The translations under genes were made by a program, and so were the position numbers. 64,000 nucleotides of DNA from Kaistia geumhonensis (GTDB lineage: Bacteria; Pseudomonadota; Alphaproteobacteria; Rhizobiales; Kaistiaceae), in contig NZ_JAUSWJ010000001.1 in assembly GCF_030815145.1 (NCBI RefSeq), positions 806,001 to 870,000 of the forward strand, in the 5' to 3' direction. This document shows, piece by piece, positions 13,196-16,921 of this stretch. The notes beneath the pieces are model-generated. The model searched no databases. It saw only the letters and a program-made list of their open reading frames with translations, and was not told where the DNA came from. How positions within the stretch are numbered: the first letter of the stretch is position 1; every line of letters starts with the position of its first letter.

Positions 13196-16100
13196 TCAGA
13201 CGAGTTCGACATGCTCGATGCCGTTCACCGCGCGCAGCGCTCCGGCGATCTGCGGCGTGAGCTGGTAGCGGCCGGGCAACTGCACCTCGACCTCGCGCTG
13301 CCCCTCGTCGAGCAGCAGCACGAGGCTGACATCGCCGTCGCCGCCGCGCGAGAGATGGCGCTCTATGCTTCGGAGCGGCTCCTCGGCCCGGAGGAAGACG
13401 CGGAGCTGCTTCAGTCCCGACACCATGTCGTCGAGCGGCTTCACCGAGACGACACGCACGCTGATGCCCTCCGGCCGGTCCTCGGCCGCCACCTGCACGA
13501 CCACCGAGCGACCCGGCTCCAGCTGGTCGCGGAACTCGTTCAGCGCCTCGGAGAAGAGGATCGCCTCGAACTGTCCCGTCGGATCGGAGAACTGGACGAT
13601 GCCCATGCGGTTGCCGGACTTCGTCTTGCGCTCCTGCCGCGCGGTGACCGTTCCGGCGAGACGGCCGGCCGCCGCGCCGCGCCGCACCGCCTCCGAGAAG
13701 TCCGCCCAGTTCTGCACGCGCTGCTTCTTCAGCACCGGCGCATATTCGTCGAGCGGATGCGCGGAAAGATAGAATCCGACGACGGCAAATTCCTTCTGCA
13801 GCCGCTCCGCCGGCAGCCAGGAATCGACCATCGGCAGCACCAGCGGCTCCCCCGCCCCTGCCCCGCCGAAGTTGAAGCCGTCCTGCCCGGCGGTCTGGTC
13901 CTCGACCAGACGGTTGCCGATGCCCATGATCCGCTCGATGCCGGCGAAGACGCGCGCCCGGTCGCGCTCGAGATCGTCGAAGGCGCCAGCGGCGACGAGG
14001 CTCTCCAGAGTCCGCTTGTTCAGGATGCGGGGATTGATGCGGGCCGCAAAATCGGCGAGGTCGCGGAAGGCTCGCCCGCCGCGGGCCTCGACGAGGTGCT
14101 CCACCGCCTGCGCGCCGACGCCCTTGATGGCCGCCAGCGAATAGAGGATGCGCCCGTCCTCGACGTCGAACACGGCGCCGGATCGGTTGACCGAGGGCAA
14201 GTCGACCTGAATGTTGAGTCTTATTGCTTCACGTCGAAAATCGTTGATTTTGTCGGTGTTGCCCATGTCGAGCGTCATCGACGCCGCCAGGAACTCCGTC
14301 GGGTAGTTCGCCTTGAGATAGGCCGTGTGATAGGAGACGAGCGCGTATGCGGCGGCATGACTCTTGTTGAAGCCGTAATCCGCGAACTTCGCCAGAAGGT
14401 CGAAGATCATGTCGGCCCGTTCCTTGGCGAGCCCCCGCTCGACGGCGCCGTCGACGAAGCGCACGCGCTGCGCATCCATCTCCGCCTTGATCTTCTTGCC
14501 CATCGCGCGGCGCAACAGGTCGGCCTCGCCGAGCGAGTAGCCCGACAGGATCTGCGCGATCTGCATCACCTGTTCCTGATAGATGATGACGCCGTGCGTC
14601 TCCTTGAGCACCGGCTCGAGCAGCGGGTGCAGGAAGTCCGGTTTCTCCTCGCCATGCTTGCGCGCGTTGTAGACCGGGATGTTGTCCATCGGGCCAGGAC
14701 GATAGAGCGCGACGAGCGCGATGATGTCCTCGAAGCGGTCGGGCCGCATGCCGACCAGGGCCTTGCGCATGCCCTGGCTTTCCAGCTGGAACACGCCGAC
14801 CGTCTCGCCGCGCGTCAGCATGTCGTAAGTCGGCTTGTCGTCCAGTGGCAGCGCCGAAAGATCGAGTCTTATCCCGCGCTTGGCGATGAGCGCTAATGCG
14901 GTTTCGAGGACGGTGAGCGTCTTCAGGCCGAGAAAGTCGAACTTCACCAGCCCCGCGCTCTCGACCCATTTCATGTTGAACTGGGTGACGGGCATCGAGG
15001 AGCGCGGATCGCGATAGAGCGGCACGAGCGCGTCGAGCCGGCGGTCGCCGATCACGATGCCGGCGGCGTGGGTCGAGGCATGGCGATAGAGCCCCTCGAG
15101 CTTCTGCGCCATGGCGAGCAGCCGGGCCACGGTCGGGTCCTCGTCGCGGGCGGCGCGCAGGCGCGGCTCGTCCTCGATCGCCTTGTCCAGGGTCACCGGA
15201 TTGGCCGGGTTCTGCGGCACGAGCTTGCAGAGCCGGTCGACCTGGCCATAGGGCATCTGCAGCACGCGGCCGACGTCGCGCAGCACCGCGCGCGCCTGCA
15301 GCGTTCCGAAGGTGATGATCTGGGCCACCTGGTCGGTGCCGTATTTCTGCTGGACGTAGCGGATGACCTCGTCGCGCCGGTCCTGGCAGAAGTCGATGTC
15401 GAAGTCCGGCATCGAGACGCGTTCCGGGTTGAGGAAGCGTTCGAAGAGCAGCGCGAAGCGCATCGGATCGAGATCGGTGATGGTGAGCGACCAGGCGACG
15501 AGGGAGCCGGCGCCCGAGCCGCGGCCTGGACCCACCGGAATCCCTTGCGATTTCGCCCACTGGATGAAGTCGGCGACGATGAGGAAATAGCCGGGGAACT
15601 TCATCTTCACGATGACGCCGAGCTCGAATTCGAGCCTTTCGGCGTAGTCCTCCGGGGAGAGTCCCGGCGCGGTGCCATGGGCGGCAAGACGCCGTGCCAG
15701 GCCTTCGCGCGCCATCTGGCGGAGCGCCTCGACCTCCGCCGCCTCCGCTTCGGCCGGATCGGCGTCGGCCCCGGCGAAGCGCGGCAGGATCGGCTTGCGC
15801 TTCACCGGCCGGTAGTGGCAGCGCAGCGCGATCTCGACCGTATTGTCCACGGCCTCGGGCAGGTCGGCGAACAGCGCCACCATCTCGCCGCGCGTCTTGA
15901 AATAGTGTTCCGGAGTCAGGCGCCGGCGCTTCTCCTCAGCGATCACCGCGCCCTCGGCGATTGCGATCAGAGCGTCATGCGCCTCGTAGTCGTCACGCTT
16001 CGGGAAGAAGGGCTCGTTTGTGGCGACGAGCGGCAGCCCGAGCCGATAGGCGAGCGCGACGAGATCGGCCTCGCAGCGCTCGCTGTCGGGGCCATGGCGC

Positions 16101-16675
16101 TGCAGTTCGACATAGAGGCGATCGCCGAAGGCCGCCGCGAGCCGCACCAGCCGCGCCTCGGCCACGACGCCCTGCCCTGCGCGGAACGCCTGATCTGCGG
16201 GACCGGCCGGGCCACCGGTGAGCAGGATCAGCCCGGCGGCCGCAGCCTCGAGGTCAGCGATCGAGACATGGGGCCGCTCGCCGGCGTCGGTTTCCATGAA
16301 GGCGCGGGAAACGAGGCGAACGAGATTCCAGTAGCCAGTCTCGTCGGCTGCCAGAGCGACGACGTCGGCCAGCGGTTTCGCGCCCGCTTGCGGCTTGCGG
16401 GCCGGCTCGAAGCCATCGTCGAACCAGACGGCGAGCTGGCAGCCGATGATCGGCTGGATGCCCTGCTCGGCCATCTTCTCGGAGAATTCCAGCGCGCCAA
16501 ACAGATTGCCGGTGTCGGTCAGCGCGAGCGCCGGCTGCTTGTCGGCAATGGCGAGCTTGCCGAGAGCCTTCAGCGGCAGCGCACCTTCGAGCAGCGAATA
16601 GGCGGAATGCACCCGAAGATGCACGAAACCGACACCGCCCGCCGCCAGGGACCGCCGCTCGCCCGTTACGCTCAT
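13196..16675 (-). CDS. dnaE: DNA polymerase III alpha subunit, DnaE1 type
   Basis: Replicative C-family polymerase. About 1159 residues, the length of DnaE1 rather than the shorter DnaE2 mutator. In order: an N-terminal PHP domain (FVHLRVHSAYSLLEGALPL), the polymerase core with PDFDIDFCQDRRDEV holding catalytic aspartates and GPGRGSGAGSLVAW before it, the GYGFNKSHAAAYA-like segment (FADYGFNKSHAAAYALVSY), an HhH region, and an OB domain (GTVTARQERKTKSG). I prefer ATG 16675, with GAGG 5 bp upstream, to GTG 16681. A short AT-rich, rare-codon patch occurs near 14206-14260. The upstream neighbour is an SOS-box microprotein, so dnaE may be partly LexA-controlled. Confidence 0.97.
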   Translation of the reverse strand: MSVTGERRSLAAGGVGFVHLRVHSAYSLLEGALPLKALGKLAIADKQPALALTDTGNLFGALEFSEKMAEQGIQPIIGCQLAVWFDDGFEPARKPQAGAKPLADVVALAADETGYWNLVRLVSRAFMETDAGERPHVSIADLEAAAAGLILLTGGPAGPADQAFRAGQGVVAEARLVRLAAAFGDRLYVELQRHGPDSERCEADLVALAYRLGLPLVATNEPFFPKRDDYEAHDALIAIAEGAVIAEEKRRRLTPEHYFKTRGEMVALFADLPEAVDNTVEIALRCHYRPVKRKPILPRFAGADADPAEAEAAEVEALRQMAREGLARRLAAHGTAPGLSPEDYAERLEFELGVIVKMKFPGYFLIVADFIQWAKSQGIPVGPGRGSGAGSLVAWSLTITDLDPMRFALLFERFLNPERVSMPDFDIDFCQDRRDEVIRYVQQKYGTDQVAQIITFGTLQARAVLRDVGRVLQMPYGQVDRLCKLVPQNPANPVTLDKAIEDEPRLRAARDEDPTVARLLAMAQKLEGLYRHASTHAAGIVIGDRRLDALVPLYRDPRSSMPVTQFNMKWVESAGLVKFDFLGLKTLTVLETALALIAKRGIRLDLSALPLDDKPTYDMLTRGETVGVFQLESQGMRKALVGMRPDRFEDIIALVALYRPGPMDNIPVYNARKHGEEKPDFLHPLLEPVLKETHGVIIYQEQVMQIAQILSGYSLGEADLLRRAMGKKIKAEMDAQRVRFVDGAVERGLAKERADMIFDLLAKFADYGFNKSHAAAYALVSYHTAYLKANYPTEFLAASMTLDMGNTDKINDFRREAIRLNIQVDLPSVNRSGAVFDVEDGRILYSLAAIKGVGAQAVEHLVEARGGRAFRDLADFAARINPRILNKRTLESLVAAGAFDDLERDRARVFAGIERIMGIGNRLVEDQTAGQDGFNFGGAGAGEPLVLPMVDSWLPAERLQKEFAVVGFYLSAHPLDEYAPVLKKQRVQNWADFSEAVRRGAAAGRLAGTVTARQERKTKSGNRMGIVQFSDPTGQFEAILFSEALNEFRDQLEPGRSVVVQVAAEDRPEGISVRVVSVKPLDDMVSGLKQLRVFLRAEEPLRSIERHLSRGGDGDVSLVLLLDEGQREVEVQLPGRYQLTPQIAGALRAVNGIEHVELV

Positions 16676-16738
16676 AGCCACCTCGCTCGAAGGTCCATCG
16701 CCAGACCTTATCCCGCGAGTCGTCTCCGCCCGTCCACC

Positions 16739-16760: not shown

Positions 16761-16859
16761 CTAGACGACGTGGGCGATCAGCTCCGACCAGAGGGTGATC
16801 ATGGCGACGAACGAGGCGAGCGCGGCAAGGGCAGCGAGATCACGGATCAGCATGGACAT
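16761..16859 (-). CDS. SOS-box-preceded 32-residue membrane microprotein
   Basis: A 33-codon frame from ATG 16859 to TAG, reading MSMLIRDLAALAALA then SFVAMITLWSELIAHVV. Residues 8-24 form one hydrophobic helix, with Arg6/Asp7 before and Glu26 after, so a single-pass inner-membrane protein is predicted. The Shine-Dalgarno GGAGG lies 8 bp upstream, the strongest seen here. Its promoter holds a perfect LexA operator (see the regulatory entry). Size, topology and control resemble SidA, the 29-residue SOS-induced division inhibitor of Caulobacter; the resemblance is by architecture, not by shown homology. dnaE follows 85 bp downstream on the same strand. Confidence 0.7.
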   Translation of the reverse strand: MSMLIRDLAALAALASFVAMITLWSELIAHVV

Positions 16860-16892
16860 CGTCTTATCCTCCGAAACCACCAAGATATCCCC

Positions 16893-16921
16893 ATATGTTC
16901 ACGTTCTGTTCTACTCGTCAA
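16893..16921 (-). promoter_or_regulatory. LexA-type SOS promoter
   Basis: On the minus strand TTGACG (16921-16916) and ACATAT (16898-16893) are spaced by 17 bp. Between and overlapping them lies GAAC-N7-GAAC, seen on the plus strand as GTTCACGTTCTGTTC at 16897-16911, a perfect match to the alphaproteobacterial LexA site GTTC-N7-GTTC. An operator in the promoter spacer would block RNA polymerase until LexA is cleaved. The -10 is weak, so the exact start site is uncertain; the operator itself is clear. Confidence 0.75.

Follow-up and report, generated by a model that had tools for sequence, protein, structure and literature searches.

A LexA-box microprotein gene upstream of dnaE in Kaistia geumhonensis, most likely a long-diverged counterpart of Caulobacter SidA

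What does a frame of only 33 codons do when it lies, behind a LexA-type box, directly upstream of the gene for the replicative polymerase of Kaistia geumhonensis? The original prediction, made from the letters of the 64,000-nucleotide stretch analysed here (the window), was an SOS-controlled membrane microprotein, SidA-like in design. In our best reading, the frame indeed encodes a microprotein that acts in an SOS division checkpoint and goes back to an ancestor shared among alphaproteobacteria.

The frame, its operator and its promoter

The locus comprises the following features:

16761..16859, minus strand: gene for a SidA-like single-helix microprotein of 32 aa (MSMLIRDLAALAALASFVAMITLWSELIAHVV), ATG to TAG
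16868..16872, minus strand: Shine-Dalgarno sequence GGAGG, 8 nt 5' of the microprotein ATG
16893..16898, minus strand: likely -10 element ACATAT, weak; it overlaps the end of the LexA box, and its spacing is kept in the genus
16897..16911, minus strand: LexA operator GAACAGAACGTGAAC (GTTCACGTTCTGTTC, GTTC-N7-GTTC, on the plus strand), conserved in homologues
16916..16921, minus strand: -35 element TTGACG; TTGAC recurs in homologues from the order
13196..16681, minus strand: dnaE (replicative DNA polymerase III alpha), the downstream neighbour, whose adjacency to the microprotein is conserved; the coordinates are those of the longest reading, from GTG, and the true start possibly lies a few codons further in

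The perfect LexA box, the strong Shine-Dalgarno sequence and the 33-codon frame (16859 to 16761, stop included) with one membrane helix were all present as originally described, the end of the box lying 37 nt from the ATG. The homologues of the 32-aa window peptide pass a hydropathy filter for one membrane helix, membrane insertion itself being predicted, and no Pfam, PHROGs, PADLOC, Rfam or PDB match was found at the microprotein. GTTCN7GTTC is the published LexA operator of Caulobacter (PMC9578287). The 17-bp-spaced promoter that had also been proposed stood in part: TTGACG is there, and the 17 nt that separate it from ACATAT are retained in genus relatives, but the -10 element agrees with TATAAT at only 2 of 6 positions, and a strict sigma-70 scan gave no promoter at the microprotein locus.

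The box motif occurs at chance level, about 1.5 copies being expected per 64-kb window, and the genome contains 114; the LexA box alone is unremarkable, so that conservation had to decide on the claim. Elsewhere in the K. geumhonensis genome the same motif stands before ssb and a divergent uvrA-like gene, before an imuA-like gene beside dnaE2, and also before ruvC and a ComM-type gene (ChlI domain). The uvrA and imuA assignments are presumptive, Pfam searches with the fragments giving only an ABC-type match or none. SOS control of ssb, uvrA, imuA, ruvC and ComM-type genes is known in alphaproteobacteria. Near G000 3660006, a gene with the look of a radical-SAM repair-type gene, whose first 110 residues have no Pfam match, is preceded by a perfect LexA box that ends 16 nt away, and near G000 2825832 the gene for a DUF763 protein, possibly an SOS gene, has a LexA-type box at its start region.

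Conservation in the genus and the order, with and without dnaE

When 151 relatives were searched with the 32 residues, the microprotein turned up in 13/13 members of the genus and, at falling similarity, in many families; a dnaE match was also present in all 30 loci fetched from this search. Within the genus the frame is intact in each of the 13 genomes compared, changes fall mostly on third positions (18/11/29 by codon position), and of the other two reading frames one stays open in only 1 genome and the second in only 4. The mean pN/pS over these genomes is 0.42, which points to selection on the microprotein that is only moderate within the genus.

As a control for search bias, dnaE was located first in the same relatives and the upstream DNA of 90 genomes was then read. 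In 53 of these 90 Hyphomicrobiales genomes a small membrane-helix frame follows a perfect LexA box at 8-130 nt. Counted by the box alone, 53 of the 90 have a perfect one no more than 450 nt before dnaE; 100 dinucleotide shuffles gave a mean of 1.33 genomes in 90 and a maximum of 5, so that the place and conservation of the box exceed chance. Among these 53 homologues the box consensus is GAACAAAAC-NN-GAAC, TTGAC stands 8-11 nt ahead of the box in 42, and an SD-like motif precedes the frame in 50. Frame and box are therefore kept across the order, as the original prediction would have them. A chance open frame behind a chance box, for which the expected 1.5 motifs per window might speak, is refuted by the conservation of frame, box, -35 element and SD across the order and in a second one (see below), and we give it practically no weight.

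By profile detection, the peptide precedes dnaE in 59 of the 90 genomes, and no copy was detectable beside dnaE in about a third of them. Agrobacterium, Rhizobium, Roseibium, Stappia, Hoeflea and Pseudovibrio, among others, carry the gene before dnaE, whereas in Nitratireductor and Stella the peptide was not found upstream of dnaE. A profile search over the phylum (189 genomes) gave 19 matches, 18 of them within Hyphomicrobiales. One strongly reduced Hyphomicrobiales genome of 1.4 Mb still has the LexA box, together with the peptide in a form of 37 aa. Other SidA-like frames (including that of Chthonobacter) have N-terminal extensions or are inverted, with no recognisable LexA box at their start, a possible loss of SOS control.

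In most genomes the gene lies about 0.1-0.2 kb ahead of dnaE, a position that would also suit a leader peptide, or an upstream frame belonging to the 5' region of dnaE, that tunes dnaE translation or makes dnaE SOS-inducible, and the authors of a study on S. meliloti raise the uORF idea for 5'-UTR frames including one named sORF25 (PMC10117765). We regard this explanation as very unlikely, since an obligate leader position was not found: (i) In seven genomes of one Rhizobiaceae genus (peptide MTDLVQDVVSLVCMSTFLISMAIWIGAM and kin), the fetched 1.7 kb contain no dnaE, and the relocated copies keep LexA box, SD and frame intact, with TTGAC in nearly all; no LexA box was seen upstream of dnaE in the two genomes of this genus that were checked. 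(ii) In two further genomes the peptide, here too with a box, stands at a distance of 2.5 kb from dnaE or on a different contig. (iii) One copy is inverted, with no recognisable box at its own start. (iv) The gap to dnaE varies from about 30 to over 600 nt. (v) The pattern of conservation is that of a membrane helix. Since box, -35 element and ribosome site moved with the gene, we do not take it for a dnaE leader peptide: operator and peptide behave as a unit, and dnaE is a neighbour.

The S. meliloti frame deserves a comment of its own. In the available text of that Ribo-seq study (PMC10117765), sORF25 is a small translated frame in the dnaE1 5'-UTR, and it resembles our gene in its small size, its place before dnaE1 and the order of its host; it differs in that this text describes it only as a possible uORF and makes no link to SOS or SidA. 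Judged by position, sORF25 is possibly this gene, in which case support for translation of the microprotein may already exist.

Relation to Caulobacter SidA

Caulobacter SidA, encoded by CCNA_02004 (PMC10769358), is an inner-membrane inhibitor with 29 residues that is induced by SOS and interacts with FtsW (PMC4211646). We picked Caulobacteraceae genomes with a flagellin probe, the crescentin family having failed as a marker; the genus label of this set rests on the probe together with the SidA model matches. A SidA-like frame of about 28-32 residues lies directly before dnaE in 48 of these 50 genomes, behind a LexA box that is perfect or has one mismatch, mostly GAAC-N7-GAAT at 32-47 nt. All 29 distinct peptides scanned match the SidA equivalog model, NCBIfam NF033228 (for example at 70.8 bits, the curated cut-off being 35 bits). 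The slot before dnaE is therefore that of sidA, and the Kaistia gene occupies sidA's place. Several sidA promoters of this family have two LexA boxes 18 nt apart and others the GAAC-N7-GAAT variant, and such double boxes or variants possibly tune repression.

The NF033228 model gave no match at E<=10 to the window peptide or to any of 40 other members from the order, which by that definition are not SidA. Direct comparison revealed a relation nonetheless. An hhalign comparison of 41 sequences from the order with 29 SidA sequences gave a probability of 95.5% (E 1.6e-8), over 24 gapless columns from the start Met. With a model built from SidA only, the window peptide scores 21.8 bits, a value reached by none of 2,000 shuffles (maximum 13.2), and its ungapped identities to SidA average 10 of 29, against 4.0 for shuffled sequences (maximum 8.7). 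In the opposite direction, the model of the order scores 26 SidA peptides at 9-36 bits, 23 of them above 16.0, a value that one of 2,600 composition-matched shuffles reaches. What the two groups share is the signature R-[DE]-x-x-A-[LF]-x-[AS]-[LV]-x-x-F, that is, R6-[DE]7 before the helix, A-[LF] at 10-11, [AS]13-[LV]14 and a nearly invariant F17. They differ in the C-terminal third, where the peptides of the order often carry W-[SGA]-[DE], commonly as a W-S-[DE] tail, and are without the FVWM(M/V)C motif of Caulobacteraceae.

The features of the wider SidA family were all found here: common descent by sequence, a LexA operator, about 30 aa (28-32 in the shared range) with one helix, and a position directly upstream of dnaE. 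Given the same place, the same control and a demonstrable sequence relation, we file the gene as a divergent SidA subfamily, and the microprotein is most likely a long-diverged counterpart of Caulobacter SidA. The likeness, first proposed for its design, thus extends to the dnaE-upstream place, the operator layout and ungapped sequence similarity. In the rest of the class, 10 of 60 genomes have a LexA box and a small helix frame before dnaE, so the arrangement may predate both orders; for these frames the sequences themselves give weaker evidence, with about five scoring above the shuffle ceiling.

A division brake and its place in the class

We consider it probable that a SidA-type microprotein is encoded here under SOS control and holds the late divisome until repair. 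In undamaged cells, LexA on the box between the -35 and -10 elements would block transcription; DNA damage would activate RecA, LexA would be cleaved, and transcription would yield a short mRNA whose ribosome site is strong. LexA binding to the box, and induction and translation of the Kaistia microprotein, are predicted. The 32-residue product would insert in the inner membrane as one helix, its N-terminus probably in (R6-D7 stand just before the helix), and, like SidA in Caulobacter, would keep FtsW/FtsI/FtsN of the late divisome from becoming active before repair is complete. Relief of filamentation is reported for Caulobacter delta-lexA delta-sidA cells. It is from the sequence relation to SidA that we infer membrane insertion, FtsW as the target and division arrest.

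We leave a small chance that the product, though a membrane microprotein under LexA control that shares its descent with SidA, has a different job or target in this order, such as a role as a polar-growth brake, in a DinQ/TisB-like action on the membrane or in modulating another part of the late divisome. Hyphomicrobiales typically grow at a pole. The C-terminal third is unlike that of SidA, the SidA model does not reach the peptides of the order, and the membrane itself can be the site of action of short helices induced by SOS, as in the case of DinQ (PMC3567139). Against this, the N-terminal and mid-helix signature is common to both groups, the persistence of the peptide over the order suggests that a protein partner has been kept, and the locus matches no known family of RNAs, antitoxin RNAs for instance.

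As a SidA-type brake, the microprotein would resemble other inhibitors in its mode of action. YneA, ChiZ, SosA and DivS of Gram-positive bacteria are likewise induced by SOS or damage, have one membrane helix and block the late divisome, but they are larger, some have extra domains, their LexA boxes are different, and a relation is not expected. SulA also arrests division under SOS control, although as a soluble FtsZ-binding protein. DidA of Caulobacter is by description alike, being small, membrane-bound, induced by damage and inhibitory to the FtsW/I/N complex, but it is SOS-independent and targets FtsN.

None of the open-access papers searched describes a SidA homologue from a bacterium other than Caulobacter, a mention in the original 2011 SidA paper being possible. 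We lean, with some reserve, towards a broader reading in which LexA box, sidA and dnaE would be an arrangement ancestral to at least Caulobacterales and Hyphomicrobiales (other alphaproteobacterial groups having candidates), the gene would be the SOS division brake of Rhizobium, Agrobacterium and relatives, and its contact surface would have diverged in these often polar-growing cells. If true, a damage brake is physically linked to the gene for the replicative polymerase, and the checkpoint is no Caulobacter speciality but is common to Rhizobium, Agrobacterium and much of their order, whose scanned members all fall outside the current family model and are missed by profile annotation. About 100 natural variants show which residues of SidA are kept, and these bear on how a 30-residue helix stops FtsW. 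If the reading is right, much of the Alphaproteobacteria, with plant symbionts and laboratory models among them, would rely on one small checkpoint protein.
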